Virus record (IMG/VR): IMGVR_UViG_3300042546_000261
Span: 1-31,658 of that record
Source: a virus
Direction: 5' to 3' (one strand)
Length of the DNA: 31,658 nucleotides
The notes below the pieces were generated by a model. That model searched no databases. It was not told where the DNA came from and worked only from the letters and a program-made list of their open reading frames with translations. This document shows, in pieces, positions 3,235 through 28,386 of the stretch; positions within the stretch are counted from its first letter, which is position 1; every line of letters begins with the position of its first letter. Made by a program: the position numbers and the translations under genes.

Positions 3235-3429
3235 ATGAAATCTAAATTTATTTGCGTCTCTCCCATCACAGATAAGGCAAAAGAAAACTTTTCAACTATA
3301 ATGAATTCTTTTCATTCTTGTCGAGTAAAACAAGAAAAAAAAGACATGATTTATCTTGAGTCTCTCAATAAAATGTATTATTTTTGGGTAAATAAAAGTA
3401 AAGACCCTAACTGGAAAATTGAAAAATAA
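3235..3429 (+). CDS. Hypothetical protein, 64 residues
   Basis: Starts three bases after the preceding stop. Lysine-rich, soluble and basic; the middle (KKDMIYLESLNKMYYFWV) looks like a helix or strand pair. No motif recognised. It ends one base before the ATG of the next gene. Confidence 0.6.
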   Translation: MKSKFICVSPITDKAKENFSTIMNSFHSCRVKQEKKDMIYLESLNKMYYFWVNKSKDPNWKIEK

Positions 3430-3430
3430 T

Positions 3431-3916
3431 ATGTGGAAGATAAAATATCTTGAACATGGTTATGCAGATTATTTTGACAAATGGTTACCATTTTTTAAAT
3501 ATAAATCTGATTTAGTTCAAGATAATACGAACAATTGTTTATCTAAAAATTGCTTTGCAACAAAAAATCTGTTAAAATTTGTGGGCGATAATGAATTTTT
3601 AGATATTATTGAAGAGTTAAAGTCTATTTGTGAGAAATGTGTAAATAAAGAACTAGAATACTTTTATTTGCATATGATTGATTATGAAAATGGAGGTGAA
3701 ATGTCATCCCACAAACATGATCATAATGAAGACTATAGTTTTATTCTTTATCTTAATTCTTGTGAAGATGGGGATACCCTTCTTCATCTTGATCCTGAAA
3801 TAAAAATAAAACCAGTTAAAGATAAAATGGTGTTATTTTCTTCAGATATTGTTCATTCTGCTATTTTTTCTAATAAAAAAAGAATTCTTGTTGGAGGATT
3901 AAAACTATGTCTTTAA
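3431..3916 (+). CDS. 2-oxoglutarate/Fe(II) dioxygenase-like protein
   Basis: 161 residues from ATG 3431; an in-frame TTG 12 bases earlier is less likely. MSSHKHDHNEDYSFILYLN (from residue 91) contains the first metal-binding histidines of a double-stranded beta helix. GDTLLHL, the SSDIVHSA histidine (142) and KKRILVGGLKL, with Arg151 as candidate 2-oxoglutarate ligand, complete the pattern of small phage dioxygenases. Such enzymes hydroxylate proteins, nucleobases or small molecules; the substrate is unknown. It overlaps the next gene by 10 bases. It is one of three dioxygenase-like genes in the window. Confidence 0.75.
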   Translation: MWKIKYLEHGYADYFDKWLPFFKYKSDLVQDNTNNCLSKNCFATKNLLKFVGDNEFLDIIEELKSICEKCVNKELEYFYLHMIDYENGGEMSSHKHDHNEDYSFILYLNSCEDGDTLLHLDPEIKIKPVKDKMVLFSSDIVHSAIFSNKKRILVGGLKLCL

Positions 3917-10893: not shown

Positions 10894-11053
10894 TACTGCT
10901 AGATTTCCTTATCCAAATTTCCCATTTAGATTAGAATACGAAGAAAACAAAGTTAAAAGAGTTTGTCATTTTGAGTGTAAAGAACATCTCAATAAATATT
11001 TGGAACGTCATAAACTTAAAAAGAATAAAGTTACAATCGAAACTCGTAAATGA
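10886..11053 (+). CDS. Hypothetical basic protein, 55 residues
   Basis: Start chosen at ATG 10886 because GGTGGA lies just before it and the overlap with the previous gene is then 8 bases; earlier ATGs at 10847 and 10871 are in frame. Small, with FECKEHLNKYLERHKLKKNKV near the end. Function unknown. Coupled by ATGA to the radical SAM gene. Confidence 0.65.
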   Translation: MIDTARFPYPNFPFRLEYEENKVKRVCHFECKEHLNKYLERHKLKKNKVTIETRK

Positions 11054-11883
11054 AAATATTTAAAGTCCCTCACATAGAATTACATGTAACGCATACTTGC
11101 AATTTTAGTTGTGAAGGATGTTCTCATTATTCTAATCATGGACATTCTGGGTCTTTAACTTTAAAAGAATGTGATGAATGGTTGTATTCTTGGAGTAGAA
11201 GATTACAACCAGAACTATTCACTATACTTGGTGGTGAGCCAACTCTTAATAAAAATTTGATTGATATAATTTATCTGGTTCGGATGATGTGGCCAGATAC
11301 TGCAACTGCTATTGATCTTGTATCAAATGCTAGTTTTTTACATACACATCCAAATTTACCGCAGGCATTATTGGATACTGACAGTACTTTAGCAATATCT
11401 ATTCATAGTAAAGTACATGCTGGATATGTAAATAAATTTAAAAAAGGTTATAGATTGACAAAAGAATGGAGAAAGCAATACGGAATTAATTTAGAATTTT
11501 GGGATTTTACCACAGATACCTGGACTCCTCAATATAATGGATTTGGGAATAATATGCTTCCCTATGAAGATAATAATCCAAGAAAGAGTTGGGAGAAGTG
11601 TCTATCTAAAAAAGCTCTACAAATACATGAGGGTAAATTGTGGAAATGTCCACCATTGGCATATTTACCAATGCAAGCAAAAAAATATAATCTTGACAAA
11701 AAATGGGATCCTTATTTAAAATATAAACCATTAGATTCGGATTGTTCTGATCAAGAACTTGAAGAATTTTTAAATAAAGAAGATGAATGTTTTTGTTCTA
11801 TGTGCCCTGCAAATATGGATAATCCTTATAAAAAAAATGATCCAACTCTTCCAGTAAGTTATTGGGAGAAGTTAAATTCATGA
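11050..11883 (+). CDS. Radical SAM enzyme
   Basis: 277 residues. CNFSCEGC (C17, C21, C24) is the CX3CX2C site for the 4Fe-4S cluster that cleaves AdoMet, and FTILGGEPTLN (about 56-66) is the GGEP motif that holds its methionine part. The C-terminal third has further cysteines (KCLSKKAL, LWKCPP and ECFCSMC) that could bind an auxiliary cluster, as in SPASM-like or twitch proteins. The reaction cannot be assigned. Radical SAM enzymes with such tails often modify peptides or sugars. It is coupled by ATGA to the carbamoyltransferase gene, so the two probably act in one pathway. Confidence 0.88.
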   Translation: MKIFKVPHIELHVTHTCNFSCEGCSHYSNHGHSGSLTLKECDEWLYSWSRRLQPELFTILGGEPTLNKNLIDIIYLVRMMWPDTATAIDLVSNASFLHTHPNLPQALLDTDSTLAISIHSKVHAGYVNKFKKGYRLTKEWRKQYGINLEFWDFTTDTWTPQYNGFGNNMLPYEDNNPRKSWEKCLSKKALQIHEGKLWKCPPLAYLPMQAKKYNLDKKWDPYLKYKPLDSDCSDQELEEFLNKEDECFCSMCPANMDNPYKKNDPTLPVSYWEKLNS

Positions 11884-13304
11884 TTACCTGGGGAATATCA
11901 TCAGAGAGTCATAATGCTGCACTTTCTGTATTTGTTAATGATAGTCTAGTCTTCGCAAGCGAAAGTGAAAGATTCAGTGGTATAAAAAATGATGCTTATT
12001 TAAATAATGGCATTATTGACTATGCACTAAAGTTTGGAAAACCAGAATTGGTATGCTGGTATGAGAATCCATATAAGAAAACGTTTAGACAACTTCTTGC
12101 AGGTCAAGGATGGATTCAGAACGTCAAAAAGTATGTTGATGTTCCAATCAAGTATTATGACCATCACTATACTCATGCTTGTGCTGGTTACTTTACCAGT
12201 CAGTTTGACGAGTGTTGTGTGGTGGTTATTGATGCTATAGGAGAATTCCAAACACTTACTATCTGGGAAGCAAGAGGTAATAAATTAAAACTTAAATTTC
12301 AACGTAAATATCCACACAGCGTTGGACTTTGGTATTCTGCAATGACACAAAGGTGTGGATTAAAACCAAATGAAGAAGAGTATATCCTCATGGGCATGTC
12401 TGCTTATGGGGATAAAACACGTTATGAAGATGATATCTATAAAGATTTCATAGGATTTAGAACAGCAACCTTTAAAAAGAATTTACATAAAGGATGTGTT
12501 GATTGGAGACCAGATATTAAAAACACTTTTGATATCGCTGCTGCAACTCAAAACATTTATGAAACAATTTTTAGAGATATTATGCAAGTAGCATCCAATA
12601 AAGTAAAAAGTAAAAATTTAGTTCTAATGGGTGGATGTGCGTTAAATTGTGTTGCAAATCCAATTGCATATTATTATTTTGACAATTTATGGATTATGCC
12701 TGCACCTGGAGATAATGGGTCTGCCATTGGTTCTGTGCTTGCACATAAAAAGAAACATATTGATTGGCATGGACCTTATCTTGGATATTATATTAAATCA
12801 GTTGCATCAAACGAAGAAATTGTTAACCACTTAATGGATTATGGTCTTTGTGGAGTTGCAAGAGGTTGTGCAGAGTTTGGTCCTAGGGCACTGGGGAATC
12901 GTAGTTTATTTGCAGACCCTAGAGATCCACAAATTAAATCAATGGTCAACAATATTAAACAAAGACAACAGTTTAGGCCATTTGCACCAGTAATTATGGA
13001 AGAATATGTACACGATTACTTTAGAATGCCTACAAATTCTTCACCATACATGCAATATGCTGTAAAATGTAGATATTCTAAAAAGTTTCCAGCAATTGTT
13101 CACATAGATAAAACAAGTAGAGTTCAAACTGTTAATAGACAACAAAATACAGAACTTTATGATCTTTTAAAGATGTGGAATGAAAAAACAGGTTGTCCTA
13201 TGTTATTGAATACTAGTTTGAATATTAAAGGGAAACCGATGGTAAATGATGAAAAAGATTGTAAAGAATGGGAAGAAACTTATGGGGTTAAAATATTCTC
13301 ATGA
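11880..13304 (+). CDS. Carbamoyltransferase (NodU/TobZ/CmcH family)
   Basis: 474 residues from ATG 11880. The N-terminal Kae1-like domain shows ISSESHNAALSVF, DHHYTHACAGYF (metal-binding histidines, about 94-105) and LVLMGGCALNCVANP (about 248-261), then GDNGSAIGSVL. The C-terminal catalytic domain has FGPRALGNRSLFADPR (333-348), QRQQFRPFAPVIMEE and MLLNTSLNIKGKPMV. Family members transfer a carbamoyl group from carbamoyl phosphate to a hydroxyl of a sugar or antibiotic. A phage-derived relative has been reported to carbamoylate 5-hydroxymethylcytosine in DNA. At 474 residues it is shorter than the usual ~550-580. It sits between a radical SAM enzyme and an SGNH-like protein; target unknown. 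Confidence 0.9.
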   Translation: MITWGISSESHNAALSVFVNDSLVFASESERFSGIKNDAYLNNGIIDYALKFGKPELVCWYENPYKKTFRQLLAGQGWIQNVKKYVDVPIKYYDHHYTHACAGYFTSQFDECCVVVIDAIGEFQTLTIWEARGNKLKLKFQRKYPHSVGLWYSAMTQRCGLKPNEEEYILMGMSAYGDKTRYEDDIYKDFIGFRTATFKKNLHKGCVDWRPDIKNTFDIAAATQNIYETIFRDIMQVASNKVKSKNLVLMGGCALNCVANPIAYYYFDNLWIMPAPGDNGSAIGSVLAHKKKHIDWHGPYLGYYIKSVASNEEIVNHLMDYGLCGVARGCAEFGPRALGNRSLFADPRDPQIKSMVNNIKQRQQFRPFAPVIMEEYVHDYFRMPTNSSPYMQYAVKCRYSKKFPAIVHIDKTSRVQTVNRQQNTELYDLLKMWNEKTGCPMLLNTSLNIKGKPMVNDEKDCKEWEETYGVKIFS

Positions 13305-14038
13305 ATATTATAGATAATTTAAACAATAAAAACTTTTTTCCTATTGATAAACCAAATAACAAATTTTGGTATGACCAAGATACAAAAGAACGATATATTC
13401 ATAATTTAAAAGTTCAACCAGAAGAATGGCATTATAGAGATAAAATAGTTTATTATTTGACAAATTCTTTTGGATATAGAACTAAGCCATTTAAAGATAT
13501 TGATTGGAGAAAATGTATTGTTTTATTTGGGTGTTCTTACATTTACGGTGTTGGTAGTGCAGAAGATGAAACTGTAACTGGATATTTGGAACAAATAACT
13601 GGAATTCCTGTAATTAATATGGGAGCACCTGGATCTTCACCAACCTTTTCTTTACATAATTCTGGAATTTTGAGTGCAAAATATCCAAATCCAAAAGCAG
13701 TTGTTTATGGTTGGTCTTCTCAATATAGATGTCCTTTTTATACTAAAAATGAAGTTATTCATTGTGGTAATTGGTTAAAAGATTCTAAAAAAATGGGAGA
13801 ATCGTGGAATAGTAATGAAGAACATCCTGCAGTAAATTTAAAATTATCATCTATTATTTCTAAAGAAATGTGGAATAATAGAACAAAATATTATGAATTT
13901 ACATTCTTTAAGACAGTTTCGGACGTTTTAAATTGTGATTATATAAAACAAGTTGATTATGCAAGAGATTTGGGACATTCTGGAAAAGAAACTAATAAAA
14001 TTGCTGCTGAAACTATTGCTAAAAATTTGAACTTGTGA
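13301..14038 (+). CDS. SGNH/GDSL hydrolase-like protein, copy 1
   Basis: 245 residues, overlapping the carbamoyltransferase by 4 bases. VLFGCSYIYGVG has Ser79 as candidate nucleophile, VINMGAPGSS fits the block with the oxyanion glycine, and YARDLGHSGKETN ends with the D223-x2-H226 pair of SGNH enzymes. Such enzymes are esterases or acetyl/acyl transferases on sugars and lipids. A homologous gene lies 456 bases downstream, with matching QPEEWHYR / FGYRTK / ITGIPVINMG blocks. The N-terminal ~70 residues are conserved between the copies and belong to no domain I know. Its place with a carbamoyltransferase suggests a glycan or small-molecule target. Confidence 0.75.
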   Translation: MNIIDNLNNKNFFPIDKPNNKFWYDQDTKERYIHNLKVQPEEWHYRDKIVYYLTNSFGYRTKPFKDIDWRKCIVLFGCSYIYGVGSAEDETVTGYLEQITGIPVINMGAPGSSPTFSLHNSGILSAKYPNPKAVVYGWSSQYRCPFYTKNEVIHCGNWLKDSKKMGESWNSNEEHPAVNLKLSSIISKEMWNNRTKYYEFTFFKTVSDVLNCDYIKQVDYARDLGHSGKETNKIAAETIAKNLNL

Positions 14039-14065
14039 TAAAATTTAATTTTTAAAACAAACACT

Positions 14066-14191
14066 ATGGCAACAAGAACTTATACTCAAAAAGATGGGAC
14101 TATTTGGGAATGGAAAGAAACTTCCGAACTTCTCAGCATTCTTGCCCAAATCCATAGCCAAAAAAATAATGAGCAACAAAAATCTAATTGA
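14066..14191 (+). CDS. Small hypothetical protein, 41 residues
   Basis: ATG 14066 to TGA 14191. Short polar protein (ATRTYTQKDGTIWEWKETSE...) with a helical C-terminus, overlapping the next gene by 23 bases. It fills the gap after the first SGNH gene. Support is only the open frame, the tight fit and a natural-looking composition. Confidence 0.5.
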   Translation: MATRTYTQKDGTIWEWKETSELLSILAQIHSQKNNEQQKSN

Positions 14192-14384
14192 CGAATCATT
14201 TTATATCAAACAATCCCAATGGGGAACATGGAGGTCATTTGATGTAAACGGGAAAGAATTAATCACTGCATTAAATGAAGAGAATTGTATAAGTGCCACA
14301 AGATTTTACTTAAAAGGTGTGCAGGAAGGGTGGAGTAATGTTGATTCTGTTAAATATGAAGGCACTGTGGGTGGCAAATTATAA
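14169..14384 (+). CDS. Small hypothetical protein, 71 residues
   Basis: Start chosen at ATG 14169; a longer version from 14094 would read across most of the preceding small gene. Mixed alpha/beta with WGTWRSFDVNGKELITALN and an end rich in glycine and valine (YEGTVGGKL). No family recognised. Its last base is shared with the next start. Confidence 0.6.
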   Translation: MSNKNLIDESFYIKQSQWGTWRSFDVNGKELITALNEENCISATRFYLKGVQEGWSNVDSVKYEGTVGGKL

Positions 14385-14497
14385 TGAGTAATTTAATTCA
14401 AAAGATTATTATACATATTAGTGAATATATTGAAAAAATAAAACTAAAAAGATTAGAGAAAAAAATTAAAAAAGAAGATAACTTCATATATAAATGA
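14384..14497 (+). CDS. Small basic helical protein, 37 residues
   Basis: Lies between the previous stop (one shared base) and the second SGNH gene (ATGA overlap). Starts with a hydrophobic amphipathic segment (LIQKIIIHISEYI), followed by a lysine-rich helix. Perhaps a tiny membrane-associated or RNA-binding peptide, or simply a coupling reading frame. Confidence 0.45.
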   Translation: MSNLIQKIIIHISEYIEKIKLKRLEKKIKKEDNFIYK

Positions 14498-15300
14498 TAA
14501 ACCGATTTAACTTAAAATTTAATAATAGAAATATTATTAAATCAATTAGAAATAATCAATTTTTACCCCTTGCAAATCATACAGTTTATAATGAAAATGG
14601 ATATATACCTGCTAATAGGTTAACTCTAAAGGGAACTTGGGATTATTCTGGAACAGATAACCAAGAAAAATATTATGAACATTTACAAACACAACCTGAA
14701 GATTGGTATTATCGTCATAATAAAGTAAAATATACTTTAAATTCTGAAGGATATAGAACTAAGGAATTTGATGAATTAGATTGGAAAAATTCTATCGTTA
14801 TGTTTGGGTGCTCGTATGTATTTGGAACTGGAGTTGATGATAAACATACTATTTCTTCTTTTTTAGAGGAGATAACTGGTATTCCCGTTATTAACATGGG
14901 TGTAGGTGGGTCATCTATTCAATTGGCACTGCATAATTCCATGATTTTAAATGATCGTTATGGACCACCTGCAGCTGTTGTATATGGATGGACTTCATTA
15001 ATGAGGTATCTTGTATATCACCCACTTTATTTTGATAATAAAATACCTACAGACAGCGTAAAAGTAAAACCTGCTGAGCATCTGGTTCCTTTTAACATGA
15101 TGAATGTTAAAATAGTTCGTAATCTTTGGAAGGATAAATGTAAATATTATGAATTTAGTCTTTTTGATACGACAGCAAAAATTTTAAATTGCGACTTTTA
15201 TCAACCAAAAGACGATTATGCAAGAGACTTAAGGCATTGTGGTATAGAATCAAATAAAGAATTTGCAGAACTTATAAATGTAAATTTATCACTATTATGA
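14494..15300 (+). CDS. SGNH/GDSL hydrolase-like protein, copy 2
   Basis: 268 residues. A paralogue of 13301-14038, sharing QPEDWYYRHNKVKY, SEGYRTKEFDELDWK, MFGCSYVFGTG (Ser107), ITGIPVINMGVGGSS and DYARDLRHCGIESN (Asp245, His248). It has about 25 extra residues at the N-terminus. All catalytic positions are kept, so both copies may be active with different substrates. Overlaps the small gene before it and the one after it by 4 bases each, which places both copies and the tiny genes in one transcript. Confidence 0.75.
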   Translation: MINRFNLKFNNRNIIKSIRNNQFLPLANHTVYNENGYIPANRLTLKGTWDYSGTDNQEKYYEHLQTQPEDWYYRHNKVKYTLNSEGYRTKEFDELDWKNSIVMFGCSYVFGTGVDDKHTISSFLEEITGIPVINMGVGGSSIQLALHNSMILNDRYGPPAAVVYGWTSLMRYLVYHPLYFDNKIPTDSVKVKPAEHLVPFNMMNVKIVRNLWKDKCKYYEFSLFDTTAKILNCDFYQPKDDYARDLRHCGIESNKEFAELINVNLSLL

Positions 15301-16364: not shown

Positions 16365-16925
16365 ATGGCAGTATTAACCGCAACTGGTATTCTATTTAAT
16401 GATAGTACGTCATTAAATTCAAGATATGATGTTATAGCACAATCATCAGTAGCAATTTTTTATCAAGCTTCGGCACCTACTGGGTGGACTAAAGTAACAA
16501 CACATAATGATAAGGCACTTAGAGTTGTTAGTGGGACTGGTGGCGGATTTGGATATGGTGGAGTATCTGGTGCAGGAGGAATAACATTTACTTCTGCATT
16601 CCCTTCTAATTTAAAAAATCTCAGTATTCCAATTAGTGTTAGTGCTGGAATTGCTGGAACAGTTGGTAATACAACTCTTTCTGTTTCGCAAATTCCAAAT
16701 CATACTCACGATAGCTTAACTGGTGGCACTAGTTCTGCAGCATCTGGTGGTGCTTCATTTAGAACTCCAGGAACTAATGCTACTGGTGGAGTAGTAAGTC
16801 CTACAGGAACAGGAGGAGCACACAACCACCCCTTTACGGGAAGTGTTGGGATTACTTCAACTGCAACTGGATCTTTGGATTTAAGAGTCCAATATATAGA
16901 TGTAATTATCTGCAGCTTCGATTAA
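16365..16925 (+). CDS. Tail-tip / collar-like structural protein, copy 1
   Basis: 186 residues, rich in Gly, Ser and Thr. FYQASAPTGWTKV opens a block common in phage collar and short-tail-fibre tips. PNHTHD (H113, H115) and GAHNHPFTG (H153, H155) give H-x-H pairs as in T4 gp12, where they bind a metal in the trimer. The end LRVQYIDVIIC is typical. A second copy follows after one base. Likely part of the virion surface or fibre, expressed late. The N-terminal ~30 residues are probably the attachment part. Confidence 0.8.
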   Translation: MAVLTATGILFNDSTSLNSRYDVIAQSSVAIFYQASAPTGWTKVTTHNDKALRVVSGTGGGFGYGGVSGAGGITFTSAFPSNLKNLSIPISVSAGIAGTVGNTTLSVSQIPNHTHDSLTGGTSSAASGGASFRTPGTNATGGVVSPTGTGGAHNHPFTGSVGITSTATGSLDLRVQYIDVIICSFD

Positions 16926-16926
16926 T

Positions 16927-17484
16927 ATGGCATCTTTAACTAGTGGCGGGATAAGATTTAGTTTAACTGATTTCACCAATATAATTGAATCTTTTTATTG
17001 GATGTATCCTGCGGGGACTAAAAAGGTATTTTATCAAGCAGAAGCACCAACTGGTTGGGTAAAAGATACAACTCAAAATAATAAAATGTTAAGAGTTGTT
17101 AGTGGAAGTGGTGGAGTTTCTGGTGGAACAATTTCAGCATCTAATGCCTTTATATCTACAGGAACTGAAGTATCTTTCCCATTTGCTGGTTCTTATCCCG
17201 CAAGTGGTACTGTTGGTAATACTACTCTTTCATTAGGACAACTTCCAAATCACACTCATGAAGGAACTATGGGTTCAAATGGAGGTTCTTCTGCAACTCC
17301 ATTCAGTAATGCTGGTTCTAGAACTGTTTTTGGTAGTGTTGCGACTAGTGGTATGCTAGAATCTACTGGTGGAGGTTCTCATACACATCCTTGGTCTGGT
17401 ACACTAAACTTAAATGCTAATATTACTAGCACTACAGATCTTAGTGTGCAATATGTTGATGTGATTATTTGCACATTATCATAA
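16927..17484 (+). CDS. Tail-tip / collar-like structural protein, copy 2
   Basis: 185 residues, paralogous to the gene before it: FYQAEAPTGWVKD, LRVVSGSGG, VGNTTLSLGQLPNHTHEG, SHTHPWSG and VQYVDVIIC align in the same order. The metal-type histidines are kept (H109/H111 and H152/H154). The glycine-rich middles differ most, which is where receptor-contacting loops would be. Two copies may form a heteromeric tip or offer alternative host contacts. Confidence 0.8.
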   Translation: MASLTSGGIRFSLTDFTNIIESFYWMYPAGTKKVFYQAEAPTGWVKDTTQNNKMLRVVSGSGGVSGGTISASNAFISTGTEVSFPFAGSYPASGTVGNTTLSLGQLPNHTHEGTMGSNGGSSATPFSNAGSRTVFGSVATSGMLESTGGGSHTHPWSGTLNLNANITSTTDLSVQYVDVIICTLS

Positions 17485-18652: not shown

Positions 18653-19819
18653 ATGAATCAATCTTTAGTTGAAAACGGATATATTATAATACCAAATTTT
18701 ATATGTTCGGAACGTGCAAAAAATTTATCCAAAGAATTTGCACAAGTATGTAAAGAAAATAATATAGATGGAGATGAGCAAGTTCCGACTTCAAAATCTC
18801 AATATGACTATATTTCTTTTTTAGAATTACTTTGTGAAAAAACTCCTGAAGTATCATCTATTATTGGCGAAACTGTTTTACCAACTTATAGTTATGCTAG
18901 AGTATATGAAAAAGGAAGCACTTTACCATCGCATACTGACAGAAAAGAATGTGAAATATCAATAACTATCAATTTAGATTCTGATGTATCTTGGCCTATT
19001 TGGGTCATGACACCAGATAAAAAGCAAAAAAGAATCATTTTAAATCCAGGGGATGGTCTTCTTTACTTGGGCATAGATATACCTCATTGGAGAGAAGAAT
19101 TAAAAGGAAATTATTGCACTCAAGTATTTTTACATTATGTAAGAAGTAGAGGACCTAATGTTGCCTTGTATTTTGATAAAGAGAATAGAAAATTTTGCAA
19201 CTTCAATGAGATTAAAAAAAGTCCAGAAGTGATGATAAAAACTGAAAATTATAAGAGTAAAAATCCATTGGATGAATACATTAAAATATATTACTCTGCA
19301 ATTCCAGATTATGTTTGTGATTTGATTTTAGAAGAGTATAAAAATTGTGAAGATTGGAATCCAAGTAGAACAGGAAACGGAGAAGTAAATAAATTCGTTC
19401 GCAATTGTGATACTATTGGATTGTCGATGGCAAATGTTATCAACAAAAATTTAGAAACCAGAAAGAAAATCGATACCTTATTATTTGAACATTCTGGTAA
19501 TACCCTTAAAAAATATGTTGAAGAATTTCCACACTGCCAATTAATTTCTGATAGTGGATATGATCTCTTGAGATATGATATGGGAGGATATTATTCTATT
19601 CATACAGATTCTCATAAAACTACACCTAGAACAGTGTCCTGTTCTTTTAATTTGAATGATGATTATGAAGGTGGAGAATTTGCATTCTTTGATAGAGAAT
19701 TAATCATTAAAGCACCAAAAGGGTCTGCAATTGTATTTCCATCGAATTTTATGTATCCTCATGAAATTATGGAAGTTAAATCTGGATCCAGATATTCTAT
19801 TGTGACTTGGTTCGTTTAA
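18653..19819 (+). CDS. Protein with two 2-oxoglutarate/Fe(II) dioxygenase domains
   Basis: 388 residues. Domain 1 (about 1-165): FICSERAKNLSKEF, then LPSHTDRKECEISITINLD (H94, D96) and DIPHWRE (H145). Domain 2 (about 205-388): a second YYSAIPDYVCDLILEEY start, then YYSIHTDSHKTTPR (H317, D319), GGEFAFFD, YPHEI (H370) and GSRYSIVTWFV (Arg380). Each half thus has the HxD...H iron triad of a prolyl-4-hydroxylase-like fold, so two catalytic units or one catalytic and one binding unit are fused. It lies right after tail genes, so a virion protein could be the substrate. Arg/Lys for 2-oxoglutarate is clear only in domain 2. Confidence 0.8.
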   Translation: MNQSLVENGYIIIPNFICSERAKNLSKEFAQVCKENNIDGDEQVPTSKSQYDYISFLELLCEKTPEVSSIIGETVLPTYSYARVYEKGSTLPSHTDRKECEISITINLDSDVSWPIWVMTPDKKQKRIILNPGDGLLYLGIDIPHWREELKGNYCTQVFLHYVRSRGPNVALYFDKENRKFCNFNEIKKSPEVMIKTENYKSKNPLDEYIKIYYSAIPDYVCDLILEEYKNCEDWNPSRTGNGEVNKFVRNCDTIGLSMANVINKNLETRKKIDTLLFEHSGNTLKKYVEEFPHCQLISDSGYDLLRYDMGGYYSIHTDSHKTTPRTVSCSFNLNDDYEGGEFAFFDRELIIKAPKGSAIVFPSNFMYPHEIMEVKSGSRYSIVTWFV

Positions 19820-22070: not shown

Positions 22071-22889
22071 ATGTCTACTACAAAAATTGCTCTGGGTGCT
22101 GGTGCTGCTGTTCTTGCTCTAGTGCTTACTGCTGGTCAATTCACCACCATCAACACTGGAGAAAATGGTCTCTACGTTGGATTTGATGGTCAGGTGAAGA
22201 ATGAAGTGCTGACGCCTGGTATTAAATACGATGGTTTCGGTTCTATCAAAGTCTTCAACACTCGTAAGATTACGGTACAATCTAACGATTTGACTCCGAA
22301 GACTAAAGACAACACCATCATGAAAGATATGGATGTTGTGGTTACTTACAGCATTGCTCCCACTTCACTCTATAGCTTCTATACTGGTTACGATATGAGT
22401 AACCATGGTGTCAGTGAGAATGGACAGATTGAACTGATGTCCACGTTTATCAAGCGTCTGATTACGTCTGCCGTGAACCAATCGGTTGACGAATATGCTG
22501 CCCTGGATGTGAACAGCAGTCTGGATAAGATTCAAGATACCATCAAACAGAATCTGAACCTTGCCCTGGAGAAGAACAACCTTGCTGGTAAGATTGATAT
22601 TGAATCCGTTGTGGTTGTAAAAGCAGACTTGCCTGAGGATCTGGTTGCTGCTGTGAATCGTGTGGTGACTGCTCAATCTGCTGAAAAGGAGCAAATTGTG
22701 AAGAACCGTACTGCTGAACTGAAAGCAAACGAGAACAAGTCTCTTGCTTCTACTATCACTCCTCAGTACCTTGAGTACCAACGTAATGAAATCATGAAGG
22801 AAGCATTCAAGAATGGTGGCATTGAAAAGATGATCATTGTGAATGGTTCTTCGATGAACTTCCTGCCTGGTGGTCTGACTGGTAAGTGA
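22071..22889 (+). CDS. Prohibitin-like SPFH/band 7 protein
   Basis: 272 residues. A membrane anchor at 5-25 (KIALGAGAAVLALVLTAGQF) is followed by INTGENGLYVGFDGQV and TPGIKYDGFGSIKVFNTRK, the start of the SPFH fold. The helical coiled-coil part is at about 170-240, and the end is IVNGSSMNFLPGG. Prohibitins assemble into ring-shaped membrane scaffolds that protect or regulate membrane proteases. Cyanophages carry such genes, perhaps to tame FtsH-type host proteases or organise the membrane during infection. GC-richer codons than most neighbours. Confidence 0.88.
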   Translation: MSTTKIALGAGAAVLALVLTAGQFTTINTGENGLYVGFDGQVKNEVLTPGIKYDGFGSIKVFNTRKITVQSNDLTPKTKDNTIMKDMDVVVTYSIAPTSLYSFYTGYDMSNHGVSENGQIELMSTFIKRLITSAVNQSVDEYAALDVNSSLDKIQDTIKQNLNLALEKNNLAGKIDIESVVVVKADLPEDLVAAVNRVVTAQSAEKEQIVKNRTAELKANENKSLASTITPQYLEYQRNEIMKEAFKNGGIEKMIIVNGSSMNFLPGGLTGK

Positions 22890-27285: not shown

Positions 27286-28386
27286 ATGATTAAAATAAGA
27301 TTAGAGCACAATGCAACTGGAAATGGATTGGGTTATCAAATATCTTCATATGTTTTGCTTAAAAGTCTTGCAAAACACTTTGGGTATGAATACGGTACTG
27401 ATGAGTTCGAATTCTTAAATTTAAGATCAACTTTTGAGGGTGTCTCCTTTGATGGTACAACAAGACCTGACACAGAATACGATAAGTTTCTTGAATTTTC
27501 GGATAATGAGTCTTTTGATACTATTGTAAGTAAAGGTCTTGAAGATGAAAGTTTGATATTTGGATATCCAAGTCCAACAAATTTTTACAAAAAGGAATAC
27601 TTTGAAGAAGTAAAAAAAGATTTGGTATTTCGTAAAATTATAAAAGATAAGTGTTCAGAATTTGTTAATAAATTTGAAGGACAAGAAATCATATCCTTAC
27701 ACATAAGAAGGGGAGATTTTTTAGATCCAATTAGCGGAATGTTTGTTTGTGGTGATGATTATTATCAGAACGCATTAAAACTTCTTCCAGAAGATGCAAA
27801 AGTTTTTATATTCACAAATGATAAAGAATATGTAAAAAATAATCCACTCTATCAAGATGACAGATTTGTATTGATAACTGATATCTACAATGACAACCAA
27901 CCAATTAATTGTGATTATGGCCAATTAATTGATAAAATGCTTGATTTTAGTGGTCATTCTAGATTTAATTATAAGTTTGTTATCTCTCAAATTGCAGCAA
28001 AAGAAGTACGTACCATAAAATCTATTGTCGATGAACTTCATCCAAAATATTTGGAAAAACTAAAAAATAAACTATATAATCATTCATTTGATTTGTGTTT
28101 GATGACAATGTGTGATTATCACATTTCAGCAAATAGCACATTTGGTATGTGGGGAACGACATTATCTAATAGTAAAAAAGTCATATATCCAAAGTATTGG
28201 ATGCATGGACATGTACCAAATCCTTTGGAACTTGAGAGAAAATTGGATCTTGGTGATTATGACCAGACTAAAGATATTGGTGGAGAATTCATGCGTGACC
28301 AACAAAAGAATTCTATTGGTATTGAAAATCCAGACCAAATTATAAGTCAACTAGAAAGTGAAATAAATACTATAAAGGGTGTATAG
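27286..28386 (+). CDS. Alpha-1,2-fucosyltransferase-like enzyme (GT11)
   Basis: 366 residues. N-terminal ATGNGLGYQISSYVLLKSLAKHFGYEY is the GT11 start (compare GLGNQLFQYA). ISLHIRRGDF (137-146) is the HxRRGD motif that binds GDP-fucose, and HISANSTFGMWGTTL (279-293) is the conserved NSTF/W motif, then KVIYPKYW. Between FIFTNDKEY and FDLCLMTMC there are ~60 residues more than in usual GT11 proteins of ~290, so a loop or subdomain is inserted. The likely reaction is fucose transfer to a sugar hydroxyl; the acceptor could be a host surface polysaccharide or a virion protein. Confidence 0.78.
   Translation: MIKIRLEHNATGNGLGYQISSYVLLKSLAKHFGYEYGTDEFEFLNLRSTFEGVSFDGTTRPDTEYDKFLEFSDNESFDTIVSKGLEDESLIFGYPSPTNFYKKEYFEEVKKDLVFRKIIKDKCSEFVNKFEGQEIISLHIRRGDFLDPISGMFVCGDDYYQNALKLLPEDAKVFIFTNDKEYVKNNPLYQDDRFVLITDIYNDNQPINCDYGQLIDKMLDFSGHSRFNYKFVISQIAAKEVRTIKSIVDELHPKYLEKLKNKLYNHSFDLCLMTMCDYHISANSTFGMWGTTLSNSKKVIYPKYWMHGHVPNPLELERKLDLGDYDQTKDIGGEFMRDQQKNSIGIENPDQIISQLESEINTIKGV

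Follow-up and report, generated by a model that had tools for sequence, protein, structure and literature searches.

The stretch of viral DNA analysed here, IMG/VR record IMGVR_UViG_3300042546_000261, comprises 31,658 bases and is one whole viral record, hereafter the window. Its open reading frame (ORF) list places four genes head to tail on the plus strand: a twitch-type radical S-adenosylmethionine (SAM) enzyme resembling SpeY (11050-11883, 277 amino acids (aa)), an O-carbamoyltransferase of the NodU/TobZ/NovN type (11880-13304, 474 aa) and two SGNH-like enzymes, SG1 (13301-14038, 245 aa) and its paralogue SG2 (14494-15300, 268 aa). ATGA overlaps of four bases are found at 11050/11053, 11880/11883, 13301/13304, 14494/14497 and 15297/15300. 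SG1 and SG2 are separated by a 27-base gap and three small plus-strand ORFs, i.e., a 41-aa ORF that is not kept with the unit (14066-14191), a DUF7468/phrog_744 small protein identified by domain and PHROG matches (14169-14384), and a 37-aa ORF that shares a four-base overlap with SG2 (14384-14497). The DUF7468 gene is a frequent but dispensable neighbour with no match in loci L173, L174, L180 and L185. An earlier note, made by a model from the DNA letters alone, had described this gene set and its overlaps, and the ORFs, the Pfam and PHROG matches and the SG2 fold bear it out. Of the cluster as the note drew it, the radical SAM, carbamoyltransferase and SG1 genes form a conserved core (the triad), whereas the small genes and SG2 vary across loci and lie outside it.

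The triad is a real unit, kept together beyond chance, because its order is maintained in 42 viral loci and the ratio of nonsynonymous to synonymous substitution rates (dN/dS) is low. When 2.9 million viral contigs were searched by alignment, 72 loci matched the radical SAM gene. At the 52 loci where its product is at least 60% identical, SG1 is present every time, directly adjacent or one gene away; the order is radical SAM, carbamoyltransferase, SG1 in 42/52 and radical SAM, SG1 in 10/52, although the 52 loci are not independent samples and some contigs are near-copies. The linkage of SG1, usually with a four-base overlap to the carbamoyltransferase, persists down to 37-50% SG1 identity, and the flanks of the triad loci are syntenic. 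Since the small genes and SG2 vary between these loci, the core consists of three genes and SG2 is an optional member. A dN/dS of 0.06-0.15 against a 92% relative indicates purifying selection. The conservation in relatives that the earlier note had proposed to check is therefore established. The small intervening genes were considered as substrates and rejected, being variable or missing at other triad loci. At one locus (L172) the triad carbamoyltransferase reads as two adjoining ORFs, which may reflect a frameshift or a split gene. A marine single-cell virus (L024, MH319727.1, AG-345-D19) carries two other SGNH-like genes, recognised from GCS motifs and with no Pfam match, and, in a row with them, a carbamoyltransferase and a radical SAM gene, the same combination from distant families. 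A contig of a Rhodobacteraceae metagenome-assembled genome (L230, PAHT02000089.1) has the triad in phage order and probably represents phage DNA that was binned with bacterial sequences; this phage-like locus is the only place where carbamoyltransferase or SGNH genes were found beside bacterial radical SAM relatives.

The radical SAM protein (PF04055, E 3e-7) carries the CxxxCxxC motif of the SAM [4Fe-4S] cluster at residues 17-24 (11098-11121), and in an alignment of 39 sequences C17, C21, C24, C184, C200, C249 and C252 as well as GGE61-63 are invariant, so that both the CxxxCxxC and the GGEP signature of the twitch/SPASM core are present. Twitch and SPASM auxiliary-cluster cysteines are spaced CX9-15GX4C ... 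CX2C. The four C-terminal cysteines C184, C200, C249 and C252 (11599-11805), with G195, follow this spacing as CX10GX4C...CX2C, and C184 and C200 align with cysteines of SpeY. The protein is thus likely to hold an auxiliary cluster, as the earlier note had suggested from the same cysteines. AlphaFold models were made for this protein and for SG2. The radical SAM model (predicted local distance difference test (pLDDT) 92.1) superposes on SpeY, whose PDB entries (7wzv, 7wzx, 7x0b) are titled "twitch radical SAM dehydrogenase", with Z 22.5 over 246 residues and a root-mean-square deviation (rmsd) of 2.7, ahead of SuiB (Z 13.6), BtrN (13.5) and viperin-like enzymes (12.6). SpeY is also the best sequence-profile match (E 3e-16), and on the predicted model the two share the fold and the auxiliary domain. 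An assignment of the best match 7wzv to the albomycin enzyme AbmM proved wrong; 7wzv is SpeY, and AbmM scores Z 10.1. SpeY, of spectinomycin biosynthesis, and BtrN oxidise a hydroxyl to a ketone.

The carbamoyltransferase matches PF16861 (1e-51), PF02543 (1e-36) and phrog_1601 (3e-102). We take ATG 11880 as its start instead of the mechanically called TTG 11862, because homologues start there. A Kae1-like N-terminal and a YrdC-like C-terminal domain are both recognised above the Pfam cut-off. The former has the HHxxH metal-site motif (H95, H96 and H99; 12162-12176), aligned with characterised and phage carbamoyltransferases, and the latter has the aligned EFGPRALGNRS motif (12873-12905), whose residues are discussed in PMC8670742. 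Key residues are hence present in both enzymes for which the earlier note had asked for an alignment. The closest solved relatives in the PDB are NovN, GdmN and TobZ. NovN and TobZ act on sugars of antibiotics.

SG1 and SG2 match no Pfam, PHROG or NCBIfam family. The SG2 model (pLDDT 92.6) has an SGNH-hydrolase fold, with CgnD as its best match (Z 14.5) followed by TesA/GDSL esterases (Z ~12, rmsd 2.5-3 over ~148 residues). Its S107 (GCS, block I) and D245 and H248 (DxxH, block V) are invariant in 43 sequences, and SG1 has the conserved block I serine and RDxxH. The model also matched BFVD entry A0A6J5LTW5, a 602-aa viral protein named radical SAM that shows the SGNH fold over 178 columns and may be a natural fusion.

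The window comes from a large T4-like cyanophage. From end to end it matches positions 75,669-107,326 of a 246,502-base contig at 100% identity; the ends of this contig overlap by ~109 bases, so that the contig represents a closed circle of ~246.4 kb. The complete genome carries psbA and psbD together with T4-type virion genes, which identify the source, and its gp23 is 77% identical to that of S-SSM7. A location beside uvsW-gp55, as in S-SSM7, was rejected, since in the complete genome that block is found at 166-187 kb.

In a maximum-likelihood tree of 47 carbamoyltransferases, those of 24 other triads form one clade. The window enzyme, together with two close relatives, groups instead among 11 copies found in other contexts (support 95/100), which include psbA-side islands, sulfotransferase-like genes, and DegT and GDP-mannose-dehydratase-type neighbourhoods. 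The carbamoyltransferase of the window lineage was thus replaced in place by exchange between phages, and the enzyme occurs both with and without an adjacent radical SAM gene; the triad genes therefore look modular rather than parts of an obligate linear pathway. On larger contigs where the carbamoyltransferase stands apart from the triad, relatives of the radical SAM gene are still encoded at other places, and several carbamoyltransferase genes outside the triad also adjoin an SGNH-type gene. Tandem sulfotransferase-looking P-loop genes stand beside the carbamoyltransferase at L053:3540-7749, L061:5648-7850 and L066; those tested had no Pfam match.

Paralogues of the radical SAM enzyme keep company with sugar genes. 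In the same phage genome a radical SAM paralogue is followed by a GDP-mannose dehydratase (1e-154), an epimerase and a GT11 transferase. In Synechococcus phage S-SCSM2R a paralogue has a DegT aminotransferase on one side and glycosyltransferases on the other, and a gene annotated as inosamine amidinotransferase follows a short way downstream; at locus L218 a paralogue accompanies DegT and NAD-dependent epimerase genes, and at L219 its neighbour is a StrB1-type inosamine-phosphate amidinotransferase (1bwd, 1e-94). Bacterial radical SAM relatives have GT2, GT1, DegT and NodZ genes within 2.6 kb (50 loci, a tally with no background rate). The cultured cyanophages P-SSM2, S-SCSM1 and S-CAM8 have carbamoyltransferases near heptose, epimerase, fucosyltransferase, 2-oxoglutarate (2OG)-oxygenase and tail-fibre genes. 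As a separate observation, the StrB1-type amidinotransferases at L219:11029-12081 and L225:11626-12687 stand beside several radical SAM/SPASM genes, an aminocyclitol-like phage gene set.

Around the triad, the window encodes a 2OG-Fe(II) oxygenase on the plus strand (18653-19819, PF13640 1e-16), which flanks the set and is a possible partner; a second such gene lies near the island at 3419-3916, with further copies upstream in other triad phages. Two neighbouring ~185-aa Gly/Ser-rich ORFs with a tail-collar-like NHTH motif (16365-17484) are conserved 3' of the triad and have no PHROG match, and an SPFH/Band-7 protein (PF01145 6e-20) is encoded at 22071-22889. The nearest glycan gene recognised in the window is a GT11, fucosyltransferase-type glycosyltransferase on the plus strand (27286-28386; PF01531 3e-13, phrog_2644 3e-38), and a GDP-fucose-type island lies elsewhere in the genome.

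From the gene identities, cofactor motifs, predicted folds, conservation as a unit and the sugar-gene company of the paralogues, we infer a set of reactions, their order and their substrate. We read the triad as a probable carbohydrate-tailoring module whose target is a virion or host-envelope glycan, and give this reading somewhat better than an even chance. The twitch radical SAM protein would take a hydrogen from the carbinol of a sugar (or cyclitol) and convert the hydroxyl to a ketone, with the auxiliary [4Fe-4S] cluster as electron acceptor, as in SpeY and BtrN. The carbamoyltransferase would form carbamoyl-adenylate from carbamoyl phosphate and ATP and pass the carbamoyl group onto a sugar hydroxyl, and the SGNH proteins would act on sugars of that class as well, by removing an O-acyl group or transferring one. 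These activities could then be parallel, interchangeable decorations instead of one obligate chain, and the product would most likely be a virion glycan or a host-envelope glycan altered by the phage. Among the targets listed by the earlier note (a surface glycan, a virion protein or a nucleotide), the evidence favours a sugar over the other two; it does not separate virion from host glycans.

Several observations weigh against a carbohydrate-tailoring role. The SpeY-like fold is no proof of a sugar substrate, for related twitch/SPASM enzymes act on peptides. No glycosyltransferase abuts the core triad, the nearest recognised being 12 kb off, and the triad contigs, which are mostly fragments, include few with GT2 or GT25 genes. 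One S-SSM7 carbamoyltransferase is next to uvsW and has no sugar genes around it. In the SGNH alignment the usual block III asparagine motif GxND was not recognised (GWTS stands instead, and N134, N148 and R171 are invariant), which makes the SG activity uncertain. Finally, the 2OG oxygenases and Gly-rich tail-collar-like ORFs that flank the triad would also fit a virion-protein target.

This last point leads to the main rival, a modification of virion protein or peptide, in which the 2OG oxygenases would add hydroxyl groups to a tail or fibre protein, and the enzymes of the cluster (radical SAM, carbamoyltransferase and SGNH) would then modify those residues or cut a leader in a crocagin-like manner. 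It is kept alive by the flanking oxygenases and by the match of SG2 to CgnD, an enzyme whose gene cluster also encodes a dioxygenase and a carbamoyltransferase (PMC10070186), and SPASM/twitch radical SAM genes do occur near some paralogues. CgnD is, however, only ~2 Z units ahead of ordinary GDSL esterases, the variable small genes provide no conserved precursor-like ORF with the triad, and SpeY is a much closer fit for the radical SAM protein than peptide enzymes such as SuiB or SkfB; we thus regard this explanation as unlikely. The antibiotic enzymes among the relatives (SpeY, TobZ/NovN/GdmN and StrB1) would suit a small, diffusible metabolite of the sugar or cyclitol kind, comparable to an aminoglycoside and synthesised in infected cells, instead of a glycan decoration. 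Such a product seems decidedly improbable, as no gene for a cyclitol synthase, an exporter or resistance could be recognised around the set, a full pathway would be of little gain to a lytic phage, and the paralogues have glycosyltransferases and nucleotide-sugar enzymes as neighbours.

About as improbable is the view that there is no common pathway, and that unrelated accessory genes of a hypervariable island stay together by chance or co-transfer. The carbamoyltransferase does move independently, as its tree position shows, and is absent from 10 loci, but the constant proximity of SG1 to close radical SAM genes, and the SGNH-type genes adjoining several carbamoyltransferases outside the triad, speak against it. 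Hypermodification of a DNA or RNA base is the least probable explanation and a very unlikely one. Its precedent is a sewage-phage carbamoyltransferase that modifies 5-hydroxymethylcytosine (5hmC) and was found with a thymidylate-synthase-family gene, while carbamoyltransferases on unmodified contigs had neighbours such as glycosyltransferases (eLife 2021, PMC8670742). The earlier note had named 5hmC in this connection and proposed a search for a deoxycytidine monophosphate (dCMP) hydroxymethylase elsewhere in the genome, and that search found none: neither the complete 246-kb genome nor a 249-kb relative contains a PF00303 gene (thymidylate synthase/dCMP hydroxymethylase), with the control positive in 9/14 genomes. 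The complete genome also lacks a C5-cytosine methylase (PF00145), with a working control; Tet_JBP had no match either, a weak absence since its control was silent. With neither a hydroxymethylase nor a C5-methylase gene, the 5hmC idea loses its substrate, and we rejected this DNA route. In addition, the window enzyme keeps the G and R of ALGNRS where the 5hmC enzyme has C and T (ALCNTT); at the positions of TobZ W408/G421/R423, mapped through an alignment with the PDB relative and an inferred tag offset, the window has V326, G339 and R341 and the 5hmC enzyme I, C and T.

Within the carbohydrate-tailoring reading, a bolder version is that uncultured cyanophages use antibiotic-style chemistry to make keto-, carbamoyl- or amidino-sugars on virion or host glycans. 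It would build on SpeY-like oxidation, TobZ/NovN-like carbamoylation and, in relatives, StrB1-like amidination, and we advance it only tentatively, as rather less likely to be right than wrong. To our knowledge, no described virus has such chemistry. Large cyanophages are rich in sugar and 2OG-oxygenase genes whose role is unexplained, and for their lipopolysaccharide (LPS) genes it has been asked whether they are stuffer DNA (PMC3037559). A compact conserved operon with a SpeY-like enzyme offers a small, testable set of reactions and a route to what these large cyanophages decorate and why, host recognition, superinfection exclusion and protection being possible reasons.

In the papers and phage isolates searched, the three-gene operon, which is carried by large uncultured cyanophages, is not yet described as a unit, in agreement with the earlier note, which knew of no described phage system with this gene set. 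Among 50,697 records of cultured phages the radical SAM protein has only two matches and SG1 and SG2 have none; no isolate searched has the SpeY-like/carbamoyltransferase/SGNH operon, and none of the 5.4 million open papers searched reports the gene set. SpeY resembles the phage enzyme in predicted fold (246/277 residues), SAM-cluster motif, twitch cysteines and size class, yet identity is ~20% and the phage protein is encoded in one operon together with carbamoyltransferase and SGNH genes. NodU/TobZ/NovN and the cyanophage "Nol-like" carbamoyltransferases (phrog_1601) share both domains and the key motifs with the window enzyme and belong to the same phage family, whereas its identity to isolate copies is ~26-33% (42% to one single-cell virus) and its gene is linked to one for a radical SAM enzyme and one for an SGNH protein. 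The 5hmC carbamoyltransferase (PMC8670742) is of the same enzyme family but differs at positions its authors linked to specificity, and its partner hydroxymethylase is absent here. Crocagin biosynthesis employs a dioxygenase, the SGNH-fold hydrolase CgnD and the carbamoyltransferase CgnI (PMC10070186), so that CgnD (PDB 8a2n) resembles SG2 in structure and in the carbamoyltransferase of its cluster; it differs in its 14% identity, its peptide substrate and a pathway described without a radical SAM enzyme. Phage glycan islands and phage carbamoyltransferases were already known (PMC3037559), and the LPS-type clusters of P-SSM2, S-SSM7 and S-SM2 likewise combine glycan-type genes, carbamoyltransferases and 2OG oxygenases in large T4-like cyanophages; these phages have no match to the SpeY-like radical SAM gene or the SG family, and the window triad lies outside a transferase cluster. 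Each enzyme of the triad belongs to a known family, and it is their conserved combination that appears to be new.

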